A stretch of 31,517 nt of DNA from the IMG/VR virus record IMGVR_UViG_3300010300_000057, positions 1 through 31,517 of that record. One strand, 5' to 3'. The first letter of the stretch is position 1. Every line of letters starts with the position of its first letter. This document shows positions 1,242-22,526 of the stretch, one piece after another. Origin of the DNA: a virus. Below the pieces are notes generated by a model. It worked only from the letters and a program-made list of their open reading frames with translations, was not told the DNA's origin and searched no databases. The position numbers and the translations under genes are program-made.

Positions 1242-4200
1242 TCACTCCCCACTATGGTCACCTGTATTATAAGATGCATCCCCGTCACTACCTTTTGGAT
1301 GTAGGGTTTGGCTATGTCTTGGTTGTACATTATAATCACCCTCTTCATCATCAGGTGATTTTCGACTTGCATCTGCTCTGAAATGCTCAAGTGTGTTCTC
1401 AGACATGACTACTCTTGCTACCGGAGAGCGTATGTCAGTCTTGTCATATCCCGTTACATCTACACCCTGAATCTTAGGACCTTGACTGGTAGGTACAGTT
1501 AGACTAGAGCCGGGTGTAATTGAGTATACAGGTGCATACGGTGGGCTACTAGGAGTACCTGTTAGGGCATTCGGTGCATCACTTGTGAACAGTCCATATT
1601 TGCCTCCGGCTGTCGCTCTATAGAAGTTGGAGCCAACTTGGTCTGCACTACTCTTCATTACAGGGGCAGGTCTGAAGAACTGTACGTGCTTACTATCCAA
1701 CACTTGTGCTGGCCTATACAGGAATTCTATCTTGGAGTCAGTGAAGTTAGTGTTCTGTATGATAGGGTCGTGGTTAGCATCTTGGTATGGGTTAGATGAT
1801 GTGGACACGCCAGTTTGCCCCCAACCTTTCACATCTAATACACCCGAATACCTACTCCATTCCATGATGTAAGTTCCACCCAAAGGCCAGTATGCATGTG
1901 CATTAGAGAACCTTGTAATACCTGCAACAGGGTTAGTACTGAAATCTAATGAGGTCATATCTAAGTCGCCCAATGTACGACTTCCACCAGTCATGGCCCC
2001 TCTCAGGTTAGTCCTTTGCCCTACTTCTCTGTCAGTGTGCAAACTCGCTGCCTCTGTAGACATGATGACATATTCCCTGCTGACACCATCATTGAGTTCA
2101 GCAATTGTATCTACATCTAGTCCCATTCGGATATCATCTCTAGCAACAGGGTCTACTAACCTAGTGTCAGCAGTAACTGTTTCTACTCCTTCACCAACAG
2201 ATGCACTCGGTTTGAGTAATCCGTCTTCGTCCGCTAGATCGAGTCTTGCACTGATGCCTCTATCGATTTCACCTGCTTGTAGAGTTTCGTTACTTGGTCG
2301 AACTAATCCCTGACCAAATGCTGGCTCTGCAGTGCTGTGTGAAAGAACTAAGCCTGTTGCTTCATGAGTTTCGCTAACATCCATCAACATACTTTCGTTG
2401 AATACTGTAGGCCAGCGGACACCTCTTCCGTCACCTCTGTCACCGACACGCATAGCACTGGCTGGGTTAAACCAATCTGCAGTGCCCATGTTACTAGCGT
2501 CATTGTTAGCAGTGTTTGCGTTACCGCTGTAACGGTCATTACCGTCACCGCCGAACAAGTCATGTGCTGCTGGCCTGTGAGTTACGTTCGTATCTTTGTA
2601 AGCGTCTTCAGGATCCCAAGATGGCCTAATACCAAAGCCTCTGACAGGGAATCTGCGGACATCTTCTCCACGAGTATTGCCCCACCAATCGACCAAGTAA
2701 TACCTGTGTGCATCTGCTAACTCTGCAATACCTTTGCCTGCGTGGTCGCCGGGGTATTCTCTCCTAACCGTAGATGCGTTTCGTATAGTTCTAACTGCAC
2801 AACCGAATGGCTCTGTCATTCTTCTTCCGTCACTATATCTTACTTGTCTACCGATTTGGTCTTGATTCAACAGTGCACTGATTTGTGTTAATCTCTCTAG
2901 TATTCCTATGTAAGTAGCATTGAAATCGACATCGCTTGGAGCACCATCACCACTATCAGCACCGACATAATCCCAGCCGCTAGTCTTGTTATCTTGCTGA
3001 ACAAATGGTCCGTGATAGTACCCATGTAGTGCGTTTGAGTCAGCGACTTCTAACCAGCCCCTTACATAGTTAGACCAGCGAGGTCTGTTGTAAGCCTGTC
3101 GAATTCCAAATCTGAATCCAAAACAATAGTTACGAGCATATGCTGATGCAGATGTCATTTCAGCGTAGGTACGAGTTCTAATTCCTGTATTGTCATCAAA
3201 GCCACCACAGTCCATTCCGTGAGTTTCGCCACCCCAGCCAATCAATGCAGAGGTATATGATTCTAAGCGACTCACTCCTCCGCCACCATGAGAACCACCC
3301 GGCCAAAATCCTGCGAAGTTATACTTGTCTGAGCCATCTGTACCTCCTTGGTGGTCAAGCGTACCGCTTCCGTCTACACGGGCATCCATCTGTGCAGCAG
3401 TGTATATTGAACCGTCGTGGAATAACGCTGTGAATACATCGTTATCAGCGTCATGTGGCGGAGCAACCCACTTCATAGCAAAACCAAATGGCCCCTTACT
3501 AGCAACATAGTTGAAGTCGTGATAGTGAATAGTCTCAAAGTATTCAGGTACGTGGTTATACGGTTTCTTGTCTACGGGTGTATCTGCGACTCCCGTTTTA
3601 TCGTAGAAATTACGTGTGCCACCAGTAGCAGTATCACTGTACCAAGTAAACGGTCTACCTAGATTCGGATGCCACAAACACAAGTATGCGTCGGGTAAAT
3701 GCAGACTGTTTGTATCTCCAGTTCCATCAACCAATGATTTGCTGAACTTGTCTTCCAACTTTCTCGGTGGGAATAATCTTGTAGCAATGCTTGATTTGGT
3801 ATCAGTATAAATAGTATCAGAAGCGTATGTATTGTAAGGTCTCGTTAGTTTGAGAATTGTATCTGCACCAATGTTAGCCCAAAACTCTGTGCTACCTGTT
3901 ACACTTTCAAATGTAGTCGATTCACCCAAAGTGGCGTGTGCAAGGGTACCTGTTCTATTTCCATATGTCGCAGTGTACCTTATGCCATTCTTTGTATATT
4001 CCAACTCCTCATCGTAATAAGGCTCTACAGGGAACAAATCATTGTTGTCAACGGTGATAGTAGATGCACCGCTGTTTACAGAGAGAACTACACAAGTTGG
4101 ATTTAGGCTCCTATTACGCCTGTGTACTTCATAGATATCCATGAAAGATGTAGGATAACCAGCAATTGTAATCTGTGCACCTACACAACCGTAAGACATT

Positions 4201-7200
4201 CTACAGAATTCGTAATAGTTGTCAGGCTTGTGCCACTCCAAATGTTTGAATTTACTAGCACCGGCACTACCAGCACCACCTTTGTGCAATATGCCCCACC
4301 AAGGAATGGTTACAGTGTAACCCGGAGTAGCACTGCTAAACATTCCCGGTCTGTATGGCAAACTTCTGCGAGTCAGTGACGAAGAAGTAGTCTCTTGTAC
4401 ACCTAATGGGTTGTAAAGTCCAAGTGTAGGCATGTTTGTGAAATGACTGCCGGAATCAGGTTCGATGTCGAGAATAACTTCGTTGATTATTACTTCACAC
4501 CCTCTAACATCGGCCATTATTGCCTCAGCCAAGATAAGCGTGTGTGCTCCGTTTGTACTGATATCTTGCTCAATTGCAATCACTGTGTTTACCTGTTGCC
4601 CTGTCAATTCCACTACCGAGCCATCAGGTGTATCTGCTGCAGGTCCGTTTGCATGGAAGCCCTTGAGTTGTTGCTTGAAGACGTTAGGCTGTATTACAAT
4701 TTGATAAGCCCCTACCTCCATCGGATCGGGGAAATGGTTGTTGAGTGTGTATGTGCCAGCCGCTTCTAACACTAATTCGTGCCCACCAGCAGCATTCTTT
4801 GTACCTGCATCTCCTACAGATGCAGCGATACCGTAGCCTTCGTACTTGACTTTGGTTTCAGTCAACAGTGTAAATCCTCCACCGTGTATATCGGATGGAG
4901 AGAATGCAGCAGTTGGGCCGGAGAAATAGATGTAAGGGTCTCGACCCGGTTCATGTGTAGTTGTAGTTGCAGTACCGCTAGTTCTAGTTGCTTCATTTGT
5001 ACCAACTAAACTGTCTATTGCAGGTGCGTTATTGGATGTCCTACAACTTTGATTCAGTTGATACAGCCTCTGATAAGCAGGGTGGGCGTAATGACCCGGC
5101 AGCAAAGCCATAGTTGGATTGACATAGTGATGGCCCATTCTTGGAATAGGCATAGGTGTCATCTTAGGCTTAGTTAGATTATCATGGGCAGTAGAGAACG
5201 GCTTAACCATGGCACCGGTATTTGCGGGTAAATTAGTGTAAAGGGTGTGCCAATCTGTAATTTTCATATCAGGACTTGCACCACTGTATTCACTGTGGTC
5301 ACGGAGTCTGCGAGATGCAAATATGCGAGTGCTACCTGCAGGCATGTAGTAAGAAGGAACAACCTTCAAACCAGTCTTACCTGTAACAAATTCTACAAAG
5401 TCAGGAGAGTATACTACTCCTGTAAAGGTACTACCTGAAACACCTGTGTAAGAAGCAATCACTCCCTTGTCAGTATTAGGGTCGTAAACTCTGAGGAAAT
5501 ATCTACCGCCACTCTGCTCTGATGTATCTAACCAAGTAGCAGATTCAGGAGCACTACCAACTGTAATGACGGAACCACTGTAACTAGAATATGTCAATTC
5601 ATCAACATCATCTCTGTGAGTCATACTCACGCCCATTTTTGTTACATGGAAATACAAACTCCTGTCGTGCGGCTCATAAGAAGTAGAGAGTGGTTTGTTA
5701 CCTGTGTGGTCTTGCCAGCCTTCTGAAGTAGATGCAGGGAAATTCAACCTATGTTCATTCTTATCAATATCAACATCAACTAAGTCTTGGCTCAAGTGCT
5801 CCCACCCATTGTTTTCCCAAGTAGGCCAAAGGCGGGGACCTGCATATGTATTATCGAACATATCCGTGATATGTTGTATTGGTTGTGCTGGATGTTGTAA
5901 ACCACCTGAACCAATAGTCTCATTCTGATAGGCTTGGATGCGATCGAATCCGGGCCTCACAATGACATTGCCGGGTATTTCGTCAGGATTAGGTAACCTA
6001 ATCTTCATGTTAGGAGAGACACCTGTACCTGCAAGGGCTGGTGCTAGACCTTGTATCTCTCTGTCACTGACATGTCTAAAGTCCATGATGACTGTGCCTA
6101 GCGGAGAGCCACCCTCTAGCCTGTGCTCTTGACCTGTATCGTCAACAACAGTCATGCTTTGGAACTGTAACTCCTCGTTTGGAATCATTAGTGCGTTCTT
6201 AATTTCTATTGGGTGTTGTTCTGCTAGTTGTGGGTGAGACAGTTCCTGAGCCTGTATTACAGGGAACATGGCGGAGTTAGTAGATTCAAAACTAAACCTG
6301 ACGTTGCCCAGCACCTTCTCTCCGACTAACTTGTAATCACTGCCGTCTTTGCGCTTTACCCAAGGTACAGCACCTAGTCCTCTTGCATTAGCAGCAGGCA
6401 TAGTCAGGCTACCACCATCCATTCGTTTCCAAACGATGTGTTCAGCCGAAAAGTTACGAGCAGCACTTCGCTTTTCATAGTAACCAAATAGACCGGGATG
6501 AGGCATAGCGGTGACTGCTGCTGAAGGATTCAAGTAATCGTCTAGTCCGCTATTACCTATACATTCCACACCGTATGTACCAAAATCCTCATGGAAGTTT
6601 GAGCCTTTAATTATACTCTCATCCCAAAACAAATCACCAGTTGGATGCAGACAAGGGTTTGCTTGTACCATATCACCTGACTGTATAGTGCGATGCCATT
6701 CAGCGTCAGTAGGTGCGCTGCCGGAAGCAGGATAATCTGAGTTGTCAAAAGGCCTTGTGAAGCCGGTGTGCATTTGTGCTTCTACACGAGGGCCAGCGTT
6801 AGCATAAGCAACATACCTAGACTTATTGTGGACTTTGTCAGTGTCCCATTGAATAGTACCGGCATGTAGAATGTTACCATTTTCCTTTGCCATTAACCAA
6901 TCGCCTGAACATAGAATGCCATCTCTGTCTGCTTTGGCAATCAGTGGTAATTCACTTTCATTAGTTATTGCAATCAAATGCCTCGATGATAATCCGTTTA
7001 CACAGGCTTCTGAGAAAGTAGCGGTAGCAACATCGCCCGTACCTACAGGGGCTGAAGATGCAAGGCATGTTTCTGCTGCGCCATACGGATTGAAGCCGAG
7101 GAACGGATGCCAAGCACCAAGTCCAGCAGGGTAAACTCCTGAACCTATTTGAGTACCGGTGTATGAATTGAGATAGGAATATGCTTCGCCAGCCCACCCT

Positions 7201-10200
7201 ACTGCGCCAACTGGCTTAGTTCTATCAATTGCATCAATCAAGCCGTTGTAATGCACTTGGCACATGTGGTCTCTTGAAGTAACACTACTGTCGTTATTGT
7301 GTCTGTGTGTTCCTGCCTTTGTCCAAACATATGCTTTGTAATTACTATCAATAGTAATATCTGCCCCTGTAACAGGACTGGTGACGTTGGTGTTACCAGT
7401 AGTATCATCGATTGTTACTCTAGCATCATCGCTAGCACCGGGTTGAATAATAATTACTTCTTCGCCGGGAACATACCCTGAACCCGGATTGTTTATTGTT
7501 ACACCAGTTACTTGTCCCGAACCATTGACTGTGATATCGACTGTCAAACCATTACCGTTCTGTGAGCCACCGGAGCCATCAGTGACTACATTACTTGCCG
7601 CTGTATATCCACCTGTTCCTGCTGGACTGATGATTGAAATTGCAGAGACAGAGGTAGTTGTGGGTCCTTTGCCTAATGTAAAGGTAGTGTTAGGTGAACT
7701 AATTGTTTGACTGACATAGGGTGCGAACCCTGCTTCACTACCGCTAAATCTGAGCCAACCATAATCAGGTAAAGTAGTAGCCGTGCTTGTTACTCTAACG
7801 CTGGCAGCAGTACCACCTGACTCCGCAGTATACTGATTTACTGCAAGTTCTACCCAACCGTATCTATCCTGCTTGTGTGCGTTTTGCATAGAAGGCAGGA
7901 ATGTACCACCAATTGCTTTTAGTGGATCTTTACCGGGGAATGTGTTGATAGATGCGCTAATTACTGCACCTAATTCTTCTGCATTCTGTACACGGGTAGC
8001 GTCTATCAAAACTATGTTAGCATCACTCAGTTGGCTATCCTCAGAGCCACTTCCATAGGCCGCTAGATAGGCCTCGGCTAACAAACCACATGGTCTAAAC
8101 GCAGACACATTGTGTTTGTTAGCACTACCTGTAGCAAGCCTACCTGTCTCAATAGGATGTTTAGGATTGAGATTGATATGGTTATCGAGGAAGTGTCCTC
8201 CGGGATGGTAACCACCATCCATGTGCCAAATCGCAAATGCCTTTTTGGTAGTGGGGTAAGTGCTACTTTCCAAATGGTTACCATTAATATCAGTAAAAGG
8301 ATAGTTGAAAGGATGAGCAGATGGTGCAGTCAAGCCGCTAGGATATTGTAAGTCTGTACCTTCGTAATAAAATGCCTTATCGTAAGTCTGAAGCATTTCT
8401 CCAGTACCGCTAGCGAGAACACTAGGGAGTCCTTTAGTTGGTTCCCAATTCATATCGTAATTAAAGCCTCTAACTTTGTTCTTTTGGAAAAATGACGTTC
8501 GTGGCAAGTGTGCAGATGCAGCCAATGTTCGATTAAATCCGCTTGAAGTATCATGCCCATTCGCTAATTGATTTGGTAAGAATGACGGAGAGTCACCTGT
8601 TGTATAAATTGGAACGGCACTGTACCCGTTCCCTGTAGTGACTATGTTCGATCCTTGTGGTTCAAATGCAGCGGTGTTGTGAGGGAATGCTTGGCCGGGA
8701 CCAAACACCATGTACACAGTTTGGTCCAAAGTGTCACCTTCTGCACTATATCTTGCATGAGGGTGAGCAAATCTGAGTATGATTGGGCTAGGTATGTTAG
8801 TTGAAACTGTGTTTGTTAAATCAGTGTAAGTAATACCAGTGGCCTTAGTGTTAGCACCTTTTGCCATATCAAACGTCAAAATACCATCTTGGTTGAACAT
8901 CGGTGGATTGTTTTTCCCTTTGTGGTCATCTAAGTAGGGTGTACCGGGGAACATTGCTAACATAGCGTTAGTGTCAAGTAAAGCATAGGAACCAGCGATT
9001 TCTCCAACATTTTGTAGACCAGCAGAACCTGTTGGGCCACCAGCGTATGGGTGAGTGTAGAATTCACCGTAATCATTTTGCGTACCGTCATTGATGTCCA
9101 TTACTACTCCACTAAAACCACCACCAAAGTAAAGTGGTACCCAGTGGTCAGGACTATCTCTACCGCCTCTGAAGTAAAGGAATGGACTAGACATTTTACT
9201 ACCGGCTCTACGAATGCCATCCGTTTTCATACCGTTTTTGACATCTCCATTCCGCATGAGAATTTCAGTGCCGGAAATAGTAGAGTTATTGAAATTGGTA
9301 CTAGTGCCTGTAGCGGCAGAATAATCTAATTTTATTTCTGCATCAGAGCCACCCCTGTGACTTTTTACTTCTGCATATTCATTAGAACCTAACCAAAGAG
9401 TAAACCGCTCGCCCCAACTTTCTGCGTTATCCGAACCGGGTACACAAATAGAGTACATGTAAGTATTACTTGCTAAAACCAAATGAGCACTCGAAATTGA
9501 ACTTAAAGTAATCATAGGACTATCTACCTTTGGAATTATGTGGTCACCGGCAACACTAGTGTAGTTTTCACCACGAAGGTTTCTTTGCCATGTAGATGTA
9601 TCAACAGGGTTATTTTGGCTGTCGACTAGTATAGGTGTGGCTGTGTTAGCGTTAGTCCCCTTATATCGAGTAGTGATGTGCAAAACCGTGTAAGGTATGT
9701 AGCCCACGTCTAATCTAGTGCCATCGTCCCTTTCCGAATCACTAAGTCCACCAGTGTGCTTACTAGAAACGACAGCATCACTGCTCGCACCTTCTAGTAG
9801 TCCCCAATCTCTACCTCTGCTGACTTCAAACAGTTTGCTGAGAGGAATTTGACTCTTAGTACTAGTTTTGATTCTAATAGCAGTAGGGCTTACTCCCCAT
9901 TCACGTAACGTGCGACCATCGGGTGCAAACATATCAGTGCAGTCGAAACTAGTTGCCTCTACACTTTGGTCACTAGGATCGCTCATGGTTAGGGCGTATT
10001 CTACTGCTGCAGCAATCACCTCATCAGTGAGAACACTAGTGAAATTTAGTCTTGGACTGATTAGTAAACCTTCACTTCCAGTTATAGCACGACCACCTGT
10101 ACAGCCATAGAAGTAGTGTTTGTTAGATGCTCCAGTATCACCATCTTTGTCAAAATGAGAACGACTTGTATAATGAATAGTTATACCTTGGTCTCCTAAT

Positions 10201-13200
10201 GGACTACCACTAGCATCATCTGTAAGTTGTATCATACCTGATTCGGGGAACCCTAAGTAACCAAGTATGTCAGGATGAGACAGTGTACCAGCCGTATCAT
10301 AAGGAGCAGTAAATACTATGTCGAGAGTTTGCCCGGTTCCAATGGGTTTGTTAGCATTGACATGAATTCCTACAGCAGGTGATGGGTAGTTATTCCAAAG
10401 ATTACCTTTGAAGGATTGAAGAGTACCGCCAGTTTTCTCGCCGCATACTTCTCCTTTACCTATCATGTGTTTACCGATTGTAAAGCCACCTTGTGCTACA
10501 TCTTTGTCATCAAAGTAGATTACTACTTCTTCATCAAATGTAGGAGGAACCATGGTCAAGTCATTGCCAAATGGCTGACCGCATTCTTTGTACACCATTC
10601 GGACAGTGTGGTTGTTACCTGTGTGGTCAGTAAATCGAATACCATACAGGTTGCCGTCGCCTATGTTTGTAGGCTTCATTTGGTCTTCAGGTATATAGCC
10701 AGTGGTGCTACTAGTAGCGTTGAAAATGGTGGTACCCAGCATAGGCGTTGCTACATTAGCAGCATTCCCATAAATCGCTTCAAACCGAGCATCCCCATCT
10801 CTACCAACTCCCCATTTACCTGTATTAGGTGCCCAGCCGGGAATACCAGCCTGTGTAAGGCCACCGAAATTAATACGGGCTTTTGCAGAAGTTCCAACTC
10901 TGAGTCCATCTACGAGTGTAGAAGATGGACTCTTTGTCTCAAACGATTCGTTGATAACTGTGTTTGAGTTTCTTCCCGATGCGTTTTCTCGGAATGTATC
11001 TGCTTTCTGCGTAGATCCAGCGACGGTTTCAGGCCCAAGACTCAAATTGTTTTCAAAAGAGTCTAGGGTCTCTTCAGGGGGTATGAATTCTTTGAGCGTA
11101 GTAATAGGTGCAAATGGCCTACCGAATCTGTTGATAGGCATAGGTGCAGGGTGCATGTTTTCTCCTGTCATTTCGTCAGGCTGGCACCAATAGTTCCTAA
11201 ATCTACCACCGTGACCTATTAGGTACTGTGGGCGATAAGGACTCTGCGCACGACTATTGTCTAACCAAACACAGAAATTCCTGCCTTGTGCACCCGGAAC
11301 GGTAGAGTGAATGACAATGGAAAATCCTTCCTTGCCGTTGGAATCTAACATAACTCTACCTAAGTGAGCACGTACATAACCCATGTGCGTCCCTTTGTCA
11401 TGGCTAGAGAATCCTTTCTTAACATCCCAAAATGGTGCTGGGTCGTGAGTAGAACCAGTGCTTTTACCCAAGTGCTGCTCTGCTGTCTTTTTGATATGAG
11501 TTCTACCGTTCTTAGCACCTGCTTGGTTGATTAGTCTGACAACTTCAAGAGCAGCAGACTCTATGTTAGTTACACCATCTTTCAAAGCGACTTCGCCCAA
11601 ATCAACAGTCAATCTGCGAACGAAATCCATTTGTGTCCAATGGTCTAAATGCTGTAGACGGGTTTCTTCATGCCCACTCAAATCTAACGCTGAAGAACGA
11701 ATACCCTTCAGTGCAAGGAACGCAGGTATAGCACGAGTTCCATCAGGAGTATCGAAGAAAGTAGATACTTCTCTTGAGTCTTTATCAATTTGCTCATGTA
11801 ATAGACCAGCATCATTTGAGTTAATTACTGCGTCATTAGTTCTAGGCATTCCGTTATTTGTGGCGTATTTAGAGCCTACATCCGGTGCATGCGGTGAGAG
11901 GATTGTACCCGTACTAGCGTTCCATGTGCTCTTGTGTGAATATGCAGCCTCAATAAACTGAGACTTAGTAGTTGAAGTAAGGTACTTGTTTTGACTTGGG
12001 AAACCGGAGGCTACATCTAATTGAGAGCCGGAATCTGCGTCACTATGAGAAATAGCACCTGCAGTAGTACTAGGTTCAGTTCCTATCTTGATTGCATCTG
12101 CGCTACTTTGTACTTGCATCCATAAGTCTTGGAATGCGATGAATTCACGGTCATGCGCTACATCATAAAGCAGGACACGGGCATGCTCATCAGATGACTG
12201 GTACGGATCTATGTAGGCAACTGTAGGTGCTAAATCAGCGGACAAACCTAGTGCTTCATAGTTCAACTCAATTGTTTTATTGACGTGCTGTACGAAGTTT
12301 TCTGCAGTTTCAATACAAGTATTACCAATCAAAAAGTTCTCCAACGGTGTACTGCTTCTAGGGTTTGCATTCATTGCACCTTGCCCACCGTTGAATCCTG
12401 TCCACACTTTACCTTCGTTTAGCGTACCTCTACTTTTACAGAATAGACCCTCAATCGAATGAGGATTAGTATAGTGCATGTTCATCCAAACTGTGTCACC
12501 ATCACGCAAACCTCCCGGTGCGTAAGGATAAGCCCAACTTCTATTCAAGAATGCCTTTTCATTTACTTCAGGATATATTGTAGTCGGACTTGCATGCATG
12601 TCAACTAGTACGACTTCATCACCCTCAGATGGAGTGAAGGCTGTATCTCTTTGGTTGAGAGTGATTGTTGTGTTAGTTCTTGATTCGTAATGTGCATAAC
12701 TGACAGTGCCACTTGCATTCCTGTATGCTAATCGGTACCGATAGCCTGCGTAACCTTCTACCCCTTCTCTATCTTCAGGGAAAAGACTAGCATCTTTTAG
12801 ATTCAGCACATTTGTACTTGTATTTAAAGCCAAAACTACACCTTTCGCCCTACCACTTTGAATTCTGTCAAGGTGAGGATTGACACGAGGTCCTGCTCTA
12901 AATTCAACCGCACTGACGTATTGCTTCATACCATAATCTACGTTGCCACCTTGTGTCATTACGTTCGACCTATCATAGTAGAATGAACGCCTACCCTCAT
13001 ATCCGGCACTCTCTAGTAATGGGTTGTCTGCGATAGGGCTGTAATTCATGTCTTGGTAACCCGGACCCGGAGTTAACTGTACACCCACTGCGAACTCTTT
13101 GACGAAGTTTTTACTCATTGCAAAATTACCACCAGCAGTTGCCGCTGACGCTGCTGTGATTGTATTGTTAGTTGTATCTCTATCAATGTAAAGCACCCAC

Positions 13201-16200
13201 TCTCCGCTTGGCAAAAATGCCCTTCGGTAACGAGCACTACCATCTATACCTGCAACAGTGACAGGGCCAGCAGTAGGAATAGGGAATATGCTTGCATCTT
13301 CAACATGAATCAAAATTGGAGCACTTGTATCAGTAAAAGGAGCAGTAATCTTAGTGCCTAATCTGTGACTGTTAGAAGAAACAGTGTAGGAAAATGCACC
13401 GAATATCTCAGGGTCTTGTGGTGAAATGGCATCGTGTCTTCTGCCAACAGGATTGGGTGCCCAATTGCTAGCAGTGTGTGTTGCGTCTACATGCAACTTC
13501 ATGCTGTTGTCAGGGCCGGGGAATATACCCTCTGCCTCATTTTTGAAGAACTGGTCAGGGAATAATGGAATCTCGACTAGTGCACGAGTACTTGCATATT
13601 GAGTACCTAGTTGATAATCATGCTGAACAGTATCTAGTGTTTGGAAAAGCCTATCGTTAATAGTTGTCCCATCATTACACAGTGATTCTTCTAGGAATTT
13701 GTCATCCACATGAAGATTACCTCCAACTATATTGGTCGAACCAACCGCTGTGACCCAATCAGAGAATGTATCTGATTCGCTACCGTCAGCGAGCATGAAC
13801 ACGCCGTTACCTCTTTGGCTACCGGAAGGGAAAGTAAACTTGTTACCAGTCTTAGATGTATATTCTGCAGAGGCAAAACGAATAGGTTCGTTTACATCTG
13901 ACCTACTTAACTCAAGATACACCCTACCTACCTTCGGGAAACAATACGTACCCCAAGACTGTAGGTCTGACGCACGATTGTTTAATGGAGAGACCGTTAT
14001 AGTTCTAGCACTTGTATCAACAGCAATGCCACTCGTCACACAATCGCGCCTTGTGCTCCAAGCAAGTCTAGCGGTAGGACTTGGATCCCAAGTCTCTTTG
14101 GTATTGATTGCACCTTGTCCGGGGCCACCCAATGTAACTGTAACCACAGGTGCACCGGGCATGATTTCCTTGACTATGTGAGAATCAGGTGCACCGTCGC
14201 CCTTTGCACTAACGCTTGCACTCGCAATATCAGATACAAGTCCGTAGGCCAGCATACTAGAAGTTCCATCAGGCTCATCACCAAACGATAGTACTCTGCC
14301 TCTTGAAACAAGATATTCGATAGAAATCGAGTTAGGTGTAGATGCATCCGACCTCAACTTTGCTAACTGAGAGAAACGCCTGCGGTCACTCGGCTGTACT
14401 GTAAGAACTACCTTTTTACCTAAAACTTGGTGTTCAATAATGTCAAAGATTTCGTAAACTCCTGTAGACTGATTTGTTGTACCGGTTCCTAAAACAATAG
14501 GACCGATAAACAATTCTTCGTTATCTTGCAGAGCAACTGCTGTTCCACCACTACCTGATATGCGGATAGTAGTCTCAGTTACTGTGTGATTAATTGTGCC
14601 GACCTTAGTTCCGTCCGCTTTGTAGACTATGTCCCCATCGACAAACACTGTCCTAGCATCTACACCGTCTACGGTTAGTGCAGTAGTAGTACTAGCCGCA
14701 TAACCTCCGTTATTGTTAATTAGTAAGCCAGTCCTAAGTCTATGGCTAGTTGGCAATTGCCTAGTCATATCCTCAACTTCTTCTAAATTACTGGAGTTGT
14801 AACTACGAGAAACAATGACCTTACTAAACTGAGAAGACTTAGTTGATAGATTAGAATCAGCCAATGCTATACTTTGAGGGGTTTTAGCAGGGGTGTCTGT
14901 TGAAGTCAATGGTAGATAGTTTTCAGGACAGAGTGTGAAGTCCAACTTTGGTTCTGCGACTGTACCCTCTTCGGTATCTCCCTCTAAGTCACCTTCAGTG
15001 AATCCAAAGTTTTCAGGCATATCTATTTCAATTCTACCTCCGGGTGAATGTATGTCTAAGTCTCCTGCGTCTAATGCAGTATGGATAAGATCGAGAATGG
15101 AGGTAGTACCAGTAACAACCGTACTCACGTCGGGTACAGTTTTCGTTACCATTAATGACGGACCATTCATTCTTAATTTTACTATAGCACCAGTAGTGTC
15201 AGCAGACTGGAATGCTGAATCTGTAGCCGAACTAAATGTGATTTTCTTAGTAGTGTGGTCTAATGTAGCAGTAATTGAAGGGTCTGTAGTTGCAGGAGTG
15301 CTACCTATAAGGAAATTGGCTGCGGACAAAACGGCTCCGTCTTTGCCAAAAGATTTGATACTTTCCAACTTGATAACTGTAGATGTACTGGTAAAGGATG
15401 AGTCTATCCTAGACGCAGCAGCAACGGAAAAATTCTCAGAATTATGAGAAACAGCATTGTAATGGACTTGTATAAATGGAGCGTAGTTATAAGTTGAAAG
15501 TGAAGGTAAATCTAGTATAGCAATCCTTGACTCATCGGACGAAACTAAATGCCTAGCAGCCTCCACCGAATCATTTAGAGTAGCATTGCCACCTACACTC
15601 TTCAAACTAAATAGACTTGAATCAAATCTAACACCACCTATACCAATCATGCCTCTTTGCGTATCAGAGATATCGCTCATGCCGTTTTCTACTACTTGGC
15701 TTACCTTTGTGCTAAAGGTCACGTTAGTTAATGGGTTGCTAATATGTGAATCGTAAGCAGATATCTTTGAGTTGACGGGAACTGTGTCTTTGATATCTGA
15801 GTACTGAGAGTCGAAAGATGCAGAAATTACATCAGCCGATGCATCTAATTTTTTGTCTACTACTAAATCCGAAACTGGTGGCAAAGTACCCATGAAAGGA
15901 TGACTCTTGACATGATTGAGAGTATGTCTACCCGAATGACCTATGTAAAACCCGTCGCCGGGATTAGCAGAGGATGCTGAAAACTTGTTGTAACTATCAG
16001 AGTCGATCGACATGCTCATTGAAAACATAATGCCGTGGTTTTCAAAATCACTTTCATCAATGCACACTTGGCCCTGCCTGTGAGAAAATTGAGTACCACT
16101 ACCTTGTGGCTGGAAGTCGTTACCATTTCCACCATCTACTATGCAGTCTCCCGTAACGACAACAAATATACCTGCGTCGTGTGCTTGTAGTGCCCCTCTT

Positions 16201-17309
16201 CTCCCATTAGAAGTTGCACCAAAATCGAGATGAATTGATTCAACTGTTACTGTACCTGCACTGCCATCGATCGCCATCAATCGGAGGCGTTCAGGTGCCT
16301 TTGCAGTAGGCTTACCAGTTGTTGGGTTGTAACCTAAAGGATTAACTATGATGTTGTAAGGTACTTTTGGAATGGTAATGTCGCTAGTAGATGTTGCGGC
16401 ATATTTCTTTACAGTGTAAGAACCCTGTGAATTCCATGGTGCAGTTGTAGTAAAGTCAATACTTTCTGTTACACCATCTCCTGCTAATTCTTTCGCTAGT
16501 GCTTTAGCAGCGTTTGTTCCTATATTGATTGTAGAACTAGCACTAGTCGATGCTGAAATCGATGGAGTAACAACTTGCGTGGCTATTGGCTCAATCGGCT
16601 CTTCAAACCTCCAAAGTGCTATTGTATCATCACTTTTCATAGGAGCATAAGCAACTTTACCTGAAGGCTTGACACCTCTTGAGAGATGAATTGCTTCTAT
16701 TGTTCCTCGGTATTCACCACCTTTACCTCCAAGAAACATGTTTGAGGGATTTAGTACAACCTGTTGCACTTCATCAAAGGCCTTGGAAACCACTAGGTCA
16801 CCATTAATATGCATGGTTAATCTTCTACCTGTGAAGGTAACTGTAACATTCAGTAATTCTCTATGACCATCGTTCAAAGCAGTGGGGTCATTTAAATCAG
16901 CATCTATGTACACATATGAATTATGAGCATTCAAATGAGGAGTTGGGAACAACACACCATCCCAATAAGCCAAATCTCCATTAGGACTGTGTACAGGCTT
17001 TGCACTATTCAAAGAATAAACACTAGTAGTACCAGCGGCTACATTTTCTAAATTTATTTCAAAGGTTGCAGGTGCAGGACTGGATGGTGTACCTACACTC
17101 AATCGCATGACATTTTCGTATTCATACACAATGCCACCGCAGTCAGGTACTATCCAAGTTTCTAAAGTAAACGAACGTAATACGTTAGGTAAAGTCTTGA
17201 GGCCTCCATCATTCTTGCCGTGTACGATGTTAAGATTCGGGGGAACCAATACACCATCAGTTATGCCGTTGAAAAGTAAAGCGTGTCCGGGGTCAATCAG
17301 TATAGTCAT
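1242..17309 (-). CDS. Giant (about 5355 aa) beta-rich LamG-domain tail fiber/adhesin-like protein
   Basis: One uninterrupted 16-kb frame occupies half the window. I start it at the ATG at 17309, behind GGGGTG with 5-nt spacing. A GTG two codons upstream lies inside that ribosome binding site and the preceding stop. Residues about 5-235 form a LamG/concanavalin A-like domain (SFTLETWIVPDCGG; LTMHINGDLVVSKAF; ALWRFEEP). Residues about 240-480 are Gly/Ser/Thr-rich. DAS-L/I-FP beta modules occur near 1340 and 1510, with a looser copy (NNDLFP) near 4420. A GGxGY...GSGYxxGE module sits near 3225-3305, and a Gly-rich patch (FWPGGSHGGGG) near 4670. The protein is rich in Thr, Ser, Gly, Asn, Tyr and Trp. 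I see no signal peptide, membrane segment or long coiled coil, so it is not a tape measure. LamG domains commonly bind glycans, so I infer a surface-exposed tail tip or receptor-binding protein. No enzymatic motif was recognised. It lies between the baseplate-like proteins and the hub. Confidence 0.75.
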   Translation of the reverse strand: MTILIDPGHALLFNGITDGVLVPPNLNIVHGKNDGGLKTLPNVLRSFTLETWIVPDCGGIVYEYENVMRLSVGTPSSPAPATFEINLENVAAGTTSVYSLNSAKPVHSPNGDLAYWDGVLFPTPHLNAHNSYVYIDADLNDPTALNDGHRELLNVTVTFTGRRLTMHINGDLVVSKAFDEVQQVVLNPSNMFLGGKGGEYRGTIEAIHLSRGVKPSGKVAYAPMKSDDTIALWRFEEPIEPIATQVVTPSISASTSASSTINIGTNAAKALAKELAGDGVTESIDFTTTAPWNSQGSYTVKKYAATSTSDITIPKVPYNIIVNPLGYNPTTGKPTAKAPERLRLMAIDGSAGTVTVESIHLDFGATSNGRRGALQAHDAGIFVVVTGDCIVDGGNGNDFQPQGSGTQFSHRQGQVCIDESDFENHGIMFSMSMSIDSDSYNKFSASSANPGDGFYIGHSGRHTLNHVKSHPFMGTLPPVSDLVVDKKLDASADVISASFDSQYSDIKDTVPVNSKISAYDSHISNPLTNVTFSTKVSQVVENGMSDISDTQRGMIGIGGVRFDSSLFSLKSVGGNATLNDSVEAARHLVSSDESRIAILDLPSLSTYNYAPFIQVHYNAVSHNSENFSVAAASRIDSSFTSTSTVIKLESIKSFGKDGAVLSAANFLIGSTPATTDPSITATLDHTTKKITFSSATDSAFQSADTTGAIVKLRMNGPSLMVTKTVPDVSTVVTGTTSILDLIHTALDAGDLDIHSPGGRIEIDMPENFGFTEGDLEGDTEEGTVAEPKLDFTLCPENYLPLTSTDTPAKTPQSIALADSNLSTKSSQFSKVIVSRSYNSSNLEEVEDMTRQLPTSHRLRTGLLINNNGGYAASTTTALTVDGVDARTVFVDGDIVYKADGTKVGTINHTVTETTIRISGSGGTAVALQDNEELFIGPIVLGTGTTNQSTGVYEIFDIIEHQVLGKKVVLTVQPSDRRRFSQLAKLRSDASTPNSISIEYLVSRGRVLSFGDEPDGTSSMLAYGLVSDIASASVSAKGDGAPDSHIVKEIMPGAPVVTVTLGGPGQGAINTKETWDPSPTARLAWSTRRDCVTSGIAVDTSARTITVSPLNNRASDLQSWGTYCFPKVGRVYLELSRSDVNEPIRFASAEYTSKTGNKFTFPSGSQRGNGVFMLADGSESDTFSDWVTAVGSTNIVGGNLHVDDKFLEESLCNDGTTINDRLFQTLDTVQHDYQLGTQYASTRALVEIPLFPDQFFKNEAEGIFPGPDNSMKLHVDATHTASNWAPNPVGRRHDAISPQDPEIFGAFSYTVSSNSHRLGTKITAPFTDTSAPILIHVEDASIFPIPTAGPVTVAGIDGSARYRRAFLPSGEWVLYIDRDTTNNTITAASAATAGGNFAMSKNFVKEFAVGVQLTPGPGYQDMNYSPIADNPLLESAGYEGRRSFYYDRSNVMTQGGNVDYGMKQYVSAVEFRAGPRVNPHLDRIQSGRAKGVVLALNTSTNVLNLKDASLFPEDREGVEGYAGYRYRLAYRNASGTVSYAHYESRTNTTITLNQRDTAFTPSEGDEVVLVDMHASPTTIYPEVNEKAFLNRSWAYPYAPGGLRDGDTVWMNMHYTNPHSIEGLFCKSRGTLNEGKVWTGFNGGQGAMNANPRSSTPLENFLIGNTCIETAENFVQHVNKTIELNYEALGLSADLAPTVAYIDPYQSSDEHARVLLYDVAHDREFIAFQDLWMQVQSSADAIKIGTEPSTTAGAISHSDADSGSQLDVASGFPSQNKYLTSTTKSQFIEAAYSHKSTWNASTGTILSPHAPDVGSKYATNNGMPRTNDAVINSNDAGLLHEQIDKDSREVSTFFDTPDGTRAIPAFLALKGIRSSALDLSGHEETRLQHLDHWTQMDFVRRLTVDLGEVALKDGVTNIESAALEVVRLINQAGAKNGRTHIKKTAEQHLGKSTGSTHDPAPFWDVKKGFSSHDKGTHMGYVRAHLGRVMLDSNGKEGFSIVIHSTVPGAQGRNFCVWLDNSRAQSPYRPQYLIGHGGRFRNYWCQPDEMTGENMHPAPMPINRFGRPFAPITTLKEFIPPEETLDSFENNLSLGPETVAGSTQKADTFRENASGRNSNTVINESFETKSPSSTLVDGLRVGTSAKARINFGGLTQAGIPGWAPNTGKWGVGRDGDARFEAIYGNAANVATPMLGTTIFNATSSTTGYIPEDQMKPTNIGDGNLYGIRFTDHTGNNHTVRMVYKECGQPFGNDLTMVPPTFDEEVVIYFDDKDVAQGGFTIGKHMIGKGEVCGEKTGGTLQSFKGNLWNNYPSPAVGIHVNANKPIGTGQTLDIVFTAPYDTAGTLSHPDILGYLGFPESGMIQLTDDASGSPLGDQGITIHYTSRSHFDKDGDTGASNKHYFYGCTGGRAITGSEGLLISPRLNFTSVLTDEVIAAAVEYALTMSDPSDQSVEATSFDCTDMFAPDGRTLREWGVSPTAIRIKTSTKSQIPLSKLFEVSRGRDWGLLEGASSDAVVSSKHTGGLSDSERDDGTRLDVGYIPYTVLHITTRYKGTNANTATPILVDSQNNPVDTSTWQRNLRGENYTSVAGDHIIPKVDSPMITLSSISSAHLVLASNTYMYSICVPGSDNAESWGERFTLWLGSNEYAEVKSHRGGSDAEIKLDYSAATGTSTNFNNSTISGTEILMRNGDVKNGMKTDGIRRAGSKMSSPFLYFRGGRDSPDHWVPLYFGGGFSGVVMDINDGTQNDYGEFYTHPYAGGPTGSAGLQNVGEIAGSYALLDTNAMLAMFPGTPYLDDHKGKNNPPMFNQDGILTFDMAKGANTKATGITYTDLTNTVSTNIPSPIILRFAHPHARYSAEGDTLDQTVYMVFGPGQAFPHNTAAFEPQGSNIVTTGNGYSAVPIYTTGDSPSFLPNQLANGHDTSSGFNRTLAASAHLPRTSFFQKNKVRGFNYDMNWEPTKGLPSVLASGTGEMLQTYDKAFYYEGTDLQYPSGLTAPSAHPFNYPFTDINGNHLESSTYPTTKKAFAIWHMDGGYHPGGHFLDNHINLNPKHPIETGRLATGSANKHNVSAFRPCGLLAEAYLAAYGSGSEDSQLSDANIVLIDATRVQNAEELGAVISASINTFPGKDPLKAIGGTFLPSMQNAHKQDRYGWVELAVNQYTAESGGTAASVRVTSTATTLPDYGWLRFSGSEAGFAPYVSQTISSPNTTFTLGKGPTTTSVSAISIISPAGTGGYTAASNVVTDGSGGSQNGNGLTVDITVNGSGQVTGVTINNPGSGYVPGEEVIIIQPGASDDARVTIDDTTGNTNVTSPVTGADITIDSNYKAYVWTKAGTHRHNNDSSVTSRDHMCQVHYNGLIDAIDRTKPVGAVGWAGEAYSYLNSYTGTQIGSGVYPAGLGAWHPFLGFNPYGAAETCLASSAPVGTGDVATATFSEACVNGLSSRHLIAITNESELPLIAKADRDGILCSGDWLMAKENGNILHAGTIQWDTDKVHNKSRYVAYANAGPRVEAQMHTGFTRPFDNSDYPASGSAPTDAEWHRTIQSGDMVQANPCLHPTGDLFWDESIIKGSNFHEDFGTYGVECIGNSGLDDYLNPSAAVTAMPHPGLFGYYEKRSAARNFSAEHIVWKRMDGGSLTMPAANARGLGAVPWVKRKDGSDYKLVGEKVLGNVRFSFESTNSAMFPVIQAQELSHPQLAEQHPIEIKNALMIPNEELQFQSMTVVDDTGQEHRLEGGSPLGTVIMDFRHVSDREIQGLAPALAGTGVSPNMKIRLPNPDEIPGNVIVRPGFDRIQAYQNETIGSGGLQHPAQPIQHITDMFDNTYAGPRLWPTWENNGWEHLSQDLVDVDIDKNEHRLNFPASTSEGWQDHTGNKPLSTSYEPHDRSLYFHVTKMGVSMTHRDDVDELTYSSYSGSVITVGSAPESATWLDTSEQSGGRYFLRVYDPNTDKGVIASYTGVSGSTFTGVVYSPDFVEFVTGKTGLKVVPSYYMPAGSTRIFASRRLRDHSEYSGASPDMKITDWHTLYTNLPANTGAMVKPFSTAHDNLTKPKMTPMPIPRMGHHYVNPTMALLPGHYAHPAYQRLYQLNQSCRTSNNAPAIDSLVGTNEATRTSGTATTTTHEPGRDPYIYFSGPTAAFSPSDIHGGGFTLLTETKVKYEGYGIAASVGDAGTKNAAGGHELVLEAAGTYTLNNHFPDPMEVGAYQIVIQPNVFKQQLKGFHANGPAADTPDGSVVELTGQQVNTVIAIEQDISTNGAHTLILAEAIMADVRGCEVIINEVILDIEPDSGSHFTNMPTLGLYNPLGVQETTSSSLTRRSLPYRPGMFSSATPGYTVTIPWWGILHKGGAGSAGASKFKHLEWHKPDNYYEFCRMSYGCVGAQITIAGYPTSFMDIYEVHRRNRSLNPTCVVLSVNSGASTITVDNNDLFPVEPYYDEELEYTKNGIRYTATYGNRTGTLAHATLGESTTFESVTGSTEFWANIGADTILKLTRPYNTYASDTIYTDTKSSIATRLFPPRKLEDKFSKSLVDGTGDTNSLHLPDAYLCLWHPNLGRPFTWYSDTATGGTRNFYDKTGVADTPVDKKPYNHVPEYFETIHYHDFNYVASKGPFGFAMKWVAPPHDADNDVFTALFHDGSIYTAAQMDARVDGSGTLDHQGGTDGSDKYNFAGFWPGGSHGGGGVSRLESYTSALIGWGGETHGMDCGGFDDNTGIRTRTYAEMTSASAYARNYCFGFRFGIRQAYNRPRWSNYVRGWLEVADSNALHGYYHGPFVQQDNKTSGWDYVGADSGDGAPSDVDFNATYIGILERLTQISALLNQDQIGRQVRYSDGRRMTEPFGCAVRTIRNASTVRREYPGDHAGKGIAELADAHRYYLVDWWGNTRGEDVRRFPVRGFGIRPSWDPEDAYKDTNVTHRPAAHDLFGGDGNDRYSGNANTANNDASNMGTADWFNPASAMRVGDRGDGRGVRWPTVFNESMLMDVSETHEATGLVLSHSTAEPAFGQGLVRPSNETLQAGEIDRGISARLDLADEDGLLKPSASVGEGVETVTADTRLVDPVARDDIRMGLDVDTIAELNDGVSREYVIMSTEAASLHTDREVGQRTNLRGAMTGGSRTLGDLDMTSLDFSTNPVAGITRFSNAHAYWPLGGTYIMEWSRYSGVLDVKGWGQTGVSTSSNPYQDANHDPIIQNTNFTDSKIEFLYRPAQVLDSKHVQFFRPAPVMKSSADQVGSNFYRATAGGKYGLFTSDAPNALTGTPSSPPYAPVYSITPGSSLTVPTSQGPKIQGVDVTGYDKTDIRSPVARVVMSENTLEHFRADASRKSPDDEEGDYNVQPRHSQTLHPKGSDGDASYNTGDHSGE

Positions 17310-17311
17310 TT

Positions 17312-19285
17312 TCACACCCCTATTACAAAGTCAGACGCTAATAATCTCAAATTGAATGCGTAGTAGTTGTTGCCAGCATCATAGCGTACATGTAGTTTTT
17401 CAGGAATAATCCTCATTCCACCTTCGTTTCCGTGAGGGTCAGAAAGTAATGTTAGAAATGTATCACCAACAAAGTTTGTAACAAATGACCCAAGAGCCAA
17501 AAGTGCATCACCAAATTCAGCAATGTTAGCAAGCAAACCCGAACCCCGATCTGGTAAAGGGTCACCGCCTAAATCTCCCGGTAGTAAGCCCGGTATCATT
17601 GTACGTGACGCTGGGATATTATTACCGGAGGAACCTTTTGCTTCAGGGTCTTGCTCTCCAAAAGTCAAGAAGAAATTTCTTGCGGTTGGCGTTACTGCAT
17701 CGCTTTGTATCAAACTATCATAAGGTATTTGTATGCCTCTGATTAAATCCCTATTCTTTTTAGCATTTGATACTAGTCCAATCAAATCCTGCACTTTATC
17801 ACCTGCAGACTTTGAATTTACACTTACAGAGTAGGTACTGTAATTGTCAGTAAAGAACTCTATTTGTGCCAACTCGCTTCCAATGTCATAATTTTGAGAG
17901 TTAAGTACCTGACTACAAGGCTCTAAAACAGACAGCAACGTATTGTTCAAAGGTTCAACTTTTTGCTTGACTTTTAGCATAGGGCCTGAGACAGAGACTT
18001 CAAAGGCATCTGATACTGCTGAACCTGACGCTCCATCAAAGTCTCCGATTTCCATTGCATCTGAGGTCAACTCTAACGCTTTCTTTACGATTAACGCAAG
18101 TGTTTCTGCAGGATTACCATTTACAGAATGTGTGCTTATTCCTCCTACTGGTACCTTTATGATTACGTCCTTGCCATTACTAGTAGAAGACCTTACACCA
18201 TTGACTGTACTAGGTATATGCTTTCCTTGTTGAGTTACGGATGGATAAGAGCCAGTGGTCCCTTCGTTTTGATAATCTGTATGGGCCATATCATCTGAAA
18301 ATTGTAATTGTACTGCTATCGGTTTTGGCCTAGCAGGAGCAAAGCCAGCATTATTCGTCCTGCTGACAGTATCTATACGCCAAAAATTAGGGTACAGTTC
18401 GATTACTTTTTGGTCAAGTACCCTTTCAATTGGTGCACTAGCACCACCTAAAACCATATAATAATCGACATAATCATAAACAGGTTGAGCGAAACTATCT
18501 AATTCGATTTCCTTTATTCTCAATTTCGTTACATCTGCATTAGTTTTAACGCCTACTACACTACCTACTATCTGTCCTTTAGTCGTGTATAGAGTCGTAG
18601 AATAGGAATGTAAGTCAGTGTTATCTGCCAAGGTAACAAGAGTGCCGTTTGCAAAACTCAAAATGTCACCACTAATACCAGTAATTGTACCAACAAATGT
18701 ACCGTTAGACAGGTGTATTCTCTCCCCTACTTTAAACCCGCTACCAGCATCAACCTGTATACTAGTCGAGCCAGCAGCATAAGAACTAGCAGAGGGATGG
18801 TCTACAGAATTTCTGTCAGAACTGTTATCGAGTGTAGAAGTTAATACACGGAGAGCAAAATCTTCGCTGTCGATGTCGTAAATGTCTATGTCACCTGTGG
18901 TGGATGATGTTGACTTAGCAAAGTCTTCTTTGAATCTAGTCACTATGTAAACGTCATTATTACCGTATATTGACAATAACGATTCATTGTTTGCTAAGTT
19001 AGAAGTAGGCATAGCAGATGCAAAATTGAAAACTATATCTCCCCCACTTATTTTAGACTTAGTTGTACCCACATCGATACTAGCACTAGTATCATCTTGG
19101 AACACACCCCCTATGTCTATCGCAATACTAGGTATGTTTGTATCAATTGCTATTCTCCCTACAATGTTGTTAGGTGTCGGAAAGGCGGAAGCATTACGAT
19201 CTACAGAGATATCTAGGGATTGTGCCTCCAATGGTATCTCCATCAAGTTATCCGGCCCAACAATTAATCGTATAGGTAAAGCCAT
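17312..19285 (-). CDS. Baseplate/distal-tail-like protein, shorter paralog without LamG
   Basis: This 657-residue protein starts at an ATG at 19285 with GAGGGA upstream, 9 nt after the previous stop. Its first 70 residues (IRLIVGPDN; LDISVDRNASAFPTP; IAIDTN; DIGGVFQDD) match the start of the gene upstream almost motif by motif. Its C-terminal third shares KSAGDKVQDLIG (about 492), GIQIPY, and a final strand ending YYAFNLRLLASDFVIGV. The two are therefore tandem paralogs. Residues about 170-235 carry a small beta module (GSTSIQVDAGSGFKVGE). Residues about 580-615 hold a hydrophobic, possibly amphipathic helical stretch (LLANIAEFGDALLALGSF) absent from the paralog. Position after the chaperones and before the giant protein and hub suggests a tail tip ring or baseplate component. 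I do not recognise a specific named family. Confidence 0.55.
   Translation of the reverse strand: MALPIRLIVGPDNLMEIPLEAQSLDISVDRNASAFPTPNNIVGRIAIDTNIPSIAIDIGGVFQDDTSASIDVGTTKSKISGGDIVFNFASAMPTSNLANNESLLSIYGNNDVYIVTRFKEDFAKSTSSTTGDIDIYDIDSEDFALRVLTSTLDNSSDRNSVDHPSASSYAAGSTSIQVDAGSGFKVGERIHLSNGTFVGTITGISGDILSFANGTLVTLADNTDLHSYSTTLYTTKGQIVGSVVGVKTNADVTKLRIKEIELDSFAQPVYDYVDYYMVLGGASAPIERVLDQKVIELYPNFWRIDTVSRTNNAGFAPARPKPIAVQLQFSDDMAHTDYQNEGTTGSYPSVTQQGKHIPSTVNGVRSSTSNGKDVIIKVPVGGISTHSVNGNPAETLALIVKKALELTSDAMEIGDFDGASGSAVSDAFEVSVSGPMLKVKQKVEPLNNTLLSVLEPCSQVLNSQNYDIGSELAQIEFFTDNYSTYSVSVNSKSAGDKVQDLIGLVSNAKKNRDLIRGIQIPYDSLIQSDAVTPTARNFFLTFGEQDPEAKGSSGNNIPASRTMIPGLLPGDLGGDPLPDRGSGLLANIAEFGDALLALGSFVTNFVGDTFLTLLSDPHGNEGGMRIIPEKLHVRYDAGNNYYAFNLRLLASDFVIGV
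17315..17320 (-). promoter_or_regulatory. Ribosome binding site of the giant gene
   Basis: On the minus strand the junction reads GGGGTGTGAAAATG. GGGGTG is 5 nt before the ATG at 17309, and the TGA between them ends the upstream gene. This favours the ATG over the in-frame GTG at 17315, which overlaps the binding site. Confidence 0.6.
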
Positions 19286-21835: not shown

Positions 21836-21837
21836 TT

Positions 21838-22257
21838 TCAACCACTCCTACTAAATCCGCTTTGATTGAGTGGACCACCCATTTTAGATCGTAATTCCTT
21901 TTGAACCATAGCACTGATTTCTTTAGCCAGTGCCTTCTTATCACTTCTATCAGTTACACCGCTGACATCTATGCGGAGGTTTACAGTGATGTCGCCCGGT
22001 GTTTCTTGAGTAGCACCTAAACCTGCTTGGGTTCTTTCTGTGGAAGGACTTGTCAGTTGGCTGAAGCCTTCTGTTTTACTAGTCTGTCTGAGCGATTCTC
22101 TCAGGTCGTTACTATGTGCTTTAGTCATCGCCATAGAATTAGTGAACTTGTCCATCTGTTCCTGCAAAGCCCTCATGTTTTTCTGCGCCTCTTCGGTATA
22201 ATCTTTGAAGTTCTCCATCGCTTCTACGCTTCTAGGATCGATATTGCCGTCTACCAT
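21838..22257 (-). CDS. Short coiled-coil protein resembling the C-terminal end of a tape measure protein
   Basis: This 139-residue protein starts at an ATG that shares one base with the preceding stop (TAATG), behind GGAGG with 7-nt spacing. Residues about 8-62 are predicted helical with heptad-like spacing (EAMENFKDYTEEAQKNMRAL, then MDKFTNSM). A Ser/Thr-rich linker follows, then ITVNLRIDVSGVTDRSDKKA and a final helix (LAKEISAMVQKELRSKM). An amphipathic strand, the phrase V.gvtDrsD, and a terminal helix resemble endings I associate with tape measure proteins. The gene sits exactly where the tape measure gene normally lies, directly after the chaperones. At 139 residues it is far shorter than any usual tape measure (700 or more). 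It may be a minimal tape measure, a split remnant, or a small tail tip initiator. Confidence 0.5.
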   Translation of the reverse strand: MVDGNIDPRSVEAMENFKDYTEEAQKNMRALQEQMDKFTNSMAMTKAHSNDLRESLRQTSKTEGFSQLTSPSTERTQAGLGATQETPGDITVNLRIDVSGVTDRSDKKALAKEISAMVQKELRSKMGGPLNQSGFSRSG

Positions 22258-22526
22258 TATATCTCCTCCAATGGTGGCACAACGTCATACCCCAAGTAAA
22301 CTGCGTTTGCTGAAGCCTCTGATTCGTCATTAGAGGCCTGCGCCCAGTATAGTAACTGTTTGGCATCTGTTACGCTAAGATTTCTCACTTCGTTCAGCCC
22401 CATGTTATAGTGTGTCATCAGAAGGTATTCCATCCCTTCTCGTTGGTACCGAAGTCGGTTGGCAACGGACCTGCCGTTGATGAAGTGTTTGATTTGTCCG
22501 ACTTCGGCTCCCGAAAAAGTAACCAT
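22257..22526 (-). CDS. Tail assembly chaperone-like, second frame (gpT-like)
   Basis: This 89-residue frame overlaps the upstream 122-residue gene by 109 bp in the -1 frame. It has its own ATG at 22526 behind GAGGTG (22532-22537, 5-nt spacing), so it may be translated independently. It may also be made as a -1 frameshift fusion (see the T-run at 22514-22518). Residues 25-62 (YQREGMEYLLMTHYNMGLNE, VRNLSVTDAKQLLYWAQA) resemble the second domain of tail assembly chaperones, where a helical segment with a Y/N-G motif precedes an l..W ending. Such proteins coat the tape measure during tail assembly and are not part of the virion. The arrangement between tube gene and tape measure position is the classic one. 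The functional call rests on this arrangement more than on sequence. Confidence 0.5.
   Translation of the reverse strand: MVTFSGAEVGQIKHFINGRSVANRLRYQREGMEYLLMTHYNMGLNEVRNLSVTDAKQLLYWAQASNDESEASANAVYLGYDVVPPLEEI

Follow-up and report, generated by a model that had tools for sequence, protein, structure and literature searches.

A conserved giant gene in the tail module of a magrovirus-type virus, probably a tail-tip chassis with exchangeable lectin-like modules

Magroviruses are viruses of Marine Group II archaea (PMC10768690, PMC12999244, PMC5332604), and an ERCC4 nuclease is near-universal among them (PMC10160649). In a group A magrovirus contig, an ATP-dependent ligase gene adjoins that of the prohead protease (PMC7318539), and the HK97-type capsid clade of the HVTV-1-like haloarchaeal viruses (Druskaviridae) also holds magroviruses (PMC8651126). 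HVTV-1 itself is a haloarchaeal siphovirus in which several 151-480-aa genes lie between the tail assembly chaperones and the baseplate gene, with no giant there. The giant gene analysed here does have a counterpart in UniProt: A0A1B1IU10 (BFVD) aligns with giant residues 230-1300 at 30% identity over 1144 alignment columns (E 6e-53) and is evidently a homologue. This protein is viral and also giant, its BFVD entry comprising at least three segments of ~1377 residues, and it was not found in the INPHARED phage collection. The literature examined, which excludes Philosof 2017, Zhou 2023 and Prabhu 2025, holds no prior account of the giant or of the exchange of its modules; a preprint in which the words 'giant gene' occur is about other elements.

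The window, an entire viral metagenome record of 31,517 bases and hence a fragment of a larger genome, contains no marker genes, and ten long relatives were therefore used for its placement. A family B DNA polymerase (PolB), an ERCC4 nuclease and a Cpn60 chaperonin are present in each of the ten. In a broader set of 17 contigs no chaperonin reached the GroEL cut-off, and the one that was compared has archaeal thermosomes as its nearest proteins, with a best full-length match to a Poseidoniaceae MAG (40%); the MGII-type chaperonin of the relatives agrees with what Nishimura et al. describe for clade 1 (PMC5332604). The 109-kb relative G001 has a recognisable terminase, portal, prohead protease and capsid protein, the last with best matches to HVTV-1, HCTV-1 and HCTV-5 at 31-33% identity (33% for HVTV-1). 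The prohead protease of G001 abuts a 1939-aa protein whose match to a ligase domain is weak and below the Pfam cut-off (E 6e-4), an arrangement reminiscent of the group A contig. The frame of this protein is L083:7709-13528, and the ligase-like match falls near its C-terminal quarter. The structural and replication gene blocks of G001 are opposed, and the contigs of the relatives span 90-109 kb, the Magrovirales genome scale being 90-110 kb. The relatives have in common with magroviruses, especially with group A (Apasviridae), the PolB, the ERCC4 nuclease, the chaperonin, the opposed blocks and the 90-110 kb scale, and perhaps also a prohead protease adjoining a ligase-domain protein. With PolB, the nuclease and the thermosome-type chaperonin in all ten relatives and an HVTV-1-like capsid in the one examined, the gene content fits the magroviruses (Magrovirales), tailed viruses of Poseidoniales (Marine Group II archaea), and within them probably group A.

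The gene order in the window starts with a helical 1474-aa protein and continues, on the minus strand, through a connector-type protein, a tail completion-type protein, the probable major tail protein, two small frames and proteins of 139, 848 and 657 residues to the giant and a hub-like protein. The connector-type protein (25430-27031) matches HVTV-1 gp125 (96% in profile-profile comparison) and phrog_17057 (4e-24), the completion-type protein (24987-25433) matches HVTV-1 gp127 (91%), and the 665-aa probable major tail protein (22980-24977) is assigned by position and by a weak profile match with HVTV-1 gp128 (33%). Two overlapping small frames (22418-22786 and 22257-22526, together 22257-22786) occupy the position of the tail assembly chaperones. 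In HVTV-1 the same position is taken by a frameshifted pair of tail assembly chaperones; a programmed frameshift is plausible for the window's frames, but their overlap showed no classic slippery heptamer. The ensuing helical protein in the tape-measure position (21838-22257) comprises only 139 residues (136-162 across 19 orthologues). This would mean a very short tail or a tape measure encoded elsewhere, for example by the helical, charged and proline-tailed 1474-aa protein (27068-31492) located between the head and connector genes. Neither a family match nor, in the fetched loci, a BLAST relative was obtained for the latter, although G001 encodes a protein of comparable size in the corresponding place, seen as two frames of 217 and 1089 residues that the ends of the fetched stretches truncate.

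Two fast-evolving tail proteins follow. The 848-aa protein (19295-21841) carries a LamG domain at ~20591-21229 and matches phrog_10356 (8e-10), its orthologues matching PF13385, while the 657-aa protein (17312-19285) is its paralogue. In L126, L127, L128, L132 and L086 the counterpart of the 848-aa protein has only 578-583 residues and is shorter by about one LamG domain, so the presence of LamG appears to vary in this gene too. On the other side of the giant, the hub-like baseplate protein (1-1245, 415 residues) is cut by the contig end; its orthologues have 466-778 residues, mostly ~550. It bears a small barrel at its C-terminus and is named on its position and on one weak Phage-tail_3 match (E 0.009). 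In every contig examined the giant is flanked by tail genes with overlapping ends. Judged by these neighbours, it is part of the tail module of a tailed virus, partly collinear with that of HVTV-1, and the sequence-only reading, which had placed it between baseplate-like proteins and the hub, agrees with this arrangement.

The giant gene (1242-17309, minus strand, as are all its modules given below) encodes 5355 residues, ~580 kDa, from the likelier start, ATG 17309, which is directly preceded on its 5' side by a GGGGTG motif; a GTG at 17315 would add two residues. The frame proceeds without interruption to the stop at 1242, and both neighbouring genes overlap or abut it. The residues G, N, D, S, T and P make up 45% of the protein, the longest run free of Pro and Gly is 43 residues, and composition and run-length analysis of the sequence detected neither a coiled-coil-like stretch nor a transmembrane segment. 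No tandem repeat was found within the gene, and a giant built of tandem repeats is ruled out, since profile self-comparison returned only about three weakly similar small barrels. The scan with the last 499 residues of the giant as query yielded 68 loci at 66-97% identity, and a broader profile scan confirmed 312 loci with giant relatives. The full-length orthologues (27 including the window) have 5211-5727 residues, those of a second clade 5173-5566, and those of the most distant group, which is ~45% identical (~38-49%), 5221-6129. One open frame of 5.15-6.13 k residues is present in over 50 marine viral contigs, which include a few near-duplicates. Among the ~45%-identical loci there are no split-gene relatives: short frames there are cut by the ends of the fetched stretches, and full contigs hold one frame. 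The interruptions seen are runs of N in L081 and broken frames in L088, which we read as sequencing or assembly faults. In L088 (G008) the giant is split into frames of 4411 and 960 residues with small ones between, and it is whole in all other long contigs.

The giant is under strong purifying selection, with a dN/dS of ~0.06 overall and at most 0.09 in each 500-residue block for which it was computable; pairs that involve the window are close to saturation at synonymous sites, but a closer pair (dS 0.62) gives 0.067. A chance frame or a misassembly is thereby ruled out, as one open frame recurs in more than 50 contigs under such selection. The single intact frame of about 16 kb, the beta-rich composition without coiled coils and the exclusion of a tape measure, all proposed from the sequence alone, are borne out. 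When G001 and the window are compared with nine relatives, giant residues 3310-5355 are 66-79% identical, versus 58-69% for the major tail protein and 42-69% for the hub; where the major tail protein stands at 58-61%, the C-terminal half of the giant reaches 67-74%. In the same comparison, the first 1000 residues of the giant are more variable (44-70%) and its 848- and 657-aa neighbours reach only 32-50%; the last ~1000 residues of the giant are among its most conserved. Measured by identity, conservation of the giant is close to that of the core structural proteins, which sets it apart from an ordinary receptor-binding protein. Conserved giants that are neither repeat proteins nor tape measures are unusual among tailed viruses. 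Searches of Pfam, PHROGs and PDB sequences with the giant returned nothing convincing beyond weak module matches, and the INPHARED phage-protein search returned no match.

Few domains are recognisable in this chain. A LamG/ConA-like domain is predicted at the N-terminus (residues ~40-218; 16656-17192), as had been proposed from the sequence alone: PF13385 is hit in orthologues at significant E-values (1e-5 to 5e-5), yet under the Pfam cut-off, and sub-threshold in the window, and the domain is gap-free in 27 of 27 full-length rows. A small beta-barrel module (residues ~856-940; 14490-14744; 92% and 81% in profile-profile comparisons) recurs in the two paralogous tail proteins upstream, the hub-like protein and the downstream ~551-565-aa frames of relatives. 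Within the giant, profile self-comparison reports copies at residues 1481-1550 (12660-12869) and 4397-4490 (3840-4121), the second also supported by AlphaFold2, and a weak one, near the reversed-profile null, at residues 1316-1388 (13146-13364). The giant is otherwise essentially non-repetitive. Two pieces of it were modelled with AlphaFold2 as monomers from a 24-row alignment. Of the piecewise prediction suggested by the sequence-only reading, the N-terminal part gave a partial model (residues 230-1300, pLDDT 61) and the C-terminal part failed (residues 4230-5355, pLDDT 28), its sole confident segment being the barrel at ~4403-4490. The N-terminal model led to the viral homologue A0A1B1IU10 and has no significant match in the PDB, only sub-threshold ones to phage tail tips. 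Apart from LamG, the small barrel and the inserts, no fold or family was recognised in Pfam, PHROGs, the PDB or the models.

The tail-tip protein J is a natural point of comparison, the giant being similarly near the hub and its sub-threshold structural matches including the lambda tail tip and J-type proteins. However, protein J fuses the hub domain, and the hub-like protein is here a separate gene; the giant also returned no J or Phage-tail_3 profile match in Pfam or PHROGs, and its assignment as a tip attachment protein J is not supported.

Differences in length between giants come down to discrete modules at shared, fixed sites, as seen in the 27 full-length rows and in the C-terminal rows. 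One module present in the window, which we call GSGY, spans 86 residues (3220-3305; 7395-7652); it is missing from 18 of the 26 other full-length rows and absent in more distant relatives. It resembles phrog_697 (structural protein), phrog_32294 (baseplate wedge) and phrog_2885, a likeness to these baseplate wedge or virion structural families that is limited to the 86-residue module and involves no full-length relation. Other inserts in relatives measure 69-153 residues. A further site, at residues 4618-4634 (3408-3458), is empty in the window; in relatives it is filled by modules of 60-160 residues or by propeller-like ones of ~270-320 residues, a propeller being weakly suggested for the latter by one sub-threshold match and by how the sequence looks. 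The site at residues 5168-5170 (1800-1808) is likewise empty in the window, and 15 of the 119 C-terminal rows bear a ~240-aa module after residue 5168 (insert at 5150-5185). These inserts pass the PF13385 cut-off (E 7e-10 to 2.5e-6), which identifies them by profile as LamG modules.

The history of the LamG insert was followed on a maximum-likelihood tree built from the flanking core of the 119 C-terminal rows, with the insertion sites left out. Presence at 5168 changes 13 times on this tree, at least 11 of the changes being forced by supported branches, and shuffled labels need 14.3 changes on average. LamG presence is therefore almost unlinked to ancestry and no more clustered than shuffled labels. 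The inserts, compared with ~20 flanking core residues included, can also be at odds with their cores: L062 and L069 are 99% identical in the core versus 45% in LamG, and L059 and L062 92% versus 36%, whereas L340 and L432 are 48% versus 78%, and L423 and L462 77% versus 95%. These identities indicate that LamG inserts have been replaced at the same site, besides being gained and lost. Recombinational exchange of host-recognition modules would be expected to leave such a pattern, which by itself is no proof of that role. The LamG domain of the 848-aa neighbour is only ~31-37% identical to the inserts of the giant over long alignments, and this comparison therefore gives no sign of recent LamG traffic between the two genes.

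We favour, with a probability of about 0.6, the reading that the giant is a conserved tail-tip (baseplate) chassis with interchangeable lectin-like adsorption modules in a magrovirus-type tailed virus of Poseidoniales. Many beta-rich domains would be made as one ~580-kDa chain, perhaps trimeric, that would assemble next to the hub, and fixed surface sites along the chain would hold the exchangeable modules, which are LamG/ConA lectin-like, propeller-like or small beta-barrels. The swap of a module would let the tail grip a different cell-surface glycan or surface-layer feature, the chassis being unchanged. We infer the presence of the giant in the virion, its assembly with the hub, glycan binding and an effect on host range; carbohydrate binding by the LamG modules in particular is suggested by the name of their fold. 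The archaeal siphovirus HFTV1 has carbohydrate-binding domains on its baseplate and head, with proposed surface-glycan contacts (PMC12494034), and may serve as a precedent for adhesive baseplate modules in an archaeal virus. The sequence-only reading had considered a very large receptor-binding assembly, and this stands in part. The chassis is conserved about like the core genes and in this differs from an ordinary receptor-binding protein, but the modules exchanged at fixed sites behave like receptor-binding parts, as do the fast-evolving 657- and 848-aa upstream neighbours, which could be the real receptor-binding parts instead.

The same data bear on other readings of the giant. If the giant were an exceptionally long tail fibre or spike, probably trimeric and itself binding the receptor with its C-terminus or its inserts as tips, this would agree with the size, with the beta-rich, non-coiled composition and with the LamG modules near the C-terminus, and an intertwined trimer would be expected to defeat monomer prediction. 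The distal end of a fibre is, however, usually its most variable part, and here it would coincide with one of the most conserved regions; a long repetitive shaft and any tail-fibre family match are also missing, and we consider this reading unlikely. We give even less credit to a structural polyprotein from which a protease would release several tail proteins. Its size, its many unrelated domains and the virus-encoded S78 protease of the relatives speak for it, but that protease adjoins the capsid gene, as the usual prohead protease does, a split gene was seen in no species among more than 50 contigs, and the inserts lie inside conserved stretches.

A tape measure proper is ruled out by the beta-rich composition, the maximum of 43 residues without Pro or Gly and the three genes that separate the giant from the chaperones. 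A related proposal, that the giant takes the place of the tail tube or wraps around it, perhaps acting as an outer or tape-measure-like component that sets tail length, draws on the lack of an ordinary tape measure, that position holding just the small protein of 136-162 residues. It is highly improbable for a beta-rich protein that has no coiled coil, carries LamG modules and does not directly follow the chaperone genes. LamG domains occur in cellular surface proteins too, which could point to a cell-surface or secreted infection protein acting outside the virion. The giant is locked between tail genes whose ends overlap in every contig examined, it has no transmembrane segment, and its C-terminal query has no match in 84,980 bacterial and archaeal genomes; this reading is the least credible of those weighed here, and a cellular surface protein as such was rejected on that same search.

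Returning to the chassis with exchangeable modules, it would, tentatively and at somewhat less than even odds, mean that in one of the most abundant groups of viruses of ocean archaea the tail tip is organised around one obligate, essentially non-repetitive chain of ~5.2-6.1 k residues, with standard docking sites for lectin-like modules exchanged by recombination, such that host-recognition evolution would be modular within one gene. The hosts are uncultured, and the insertion sites pinpoint the residues of interest for what these viruses recognise; modules that differ between viruses with near-identical giants would amount to natural host-range variants. Regarding annotation, Laminin_G_3 has been listed as an auxiliary metabolic gene in a magrovirus survey (PMC10160649). 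The matches to this domain in the 13 contigs that we scanned, by contrast, lie in frames sized like the 848-aa tail protein or the giant, and Laminin_G_3 in these viruses, at least in those contigs, therefore looks like a virion part and not an auxiliary metabolic function.
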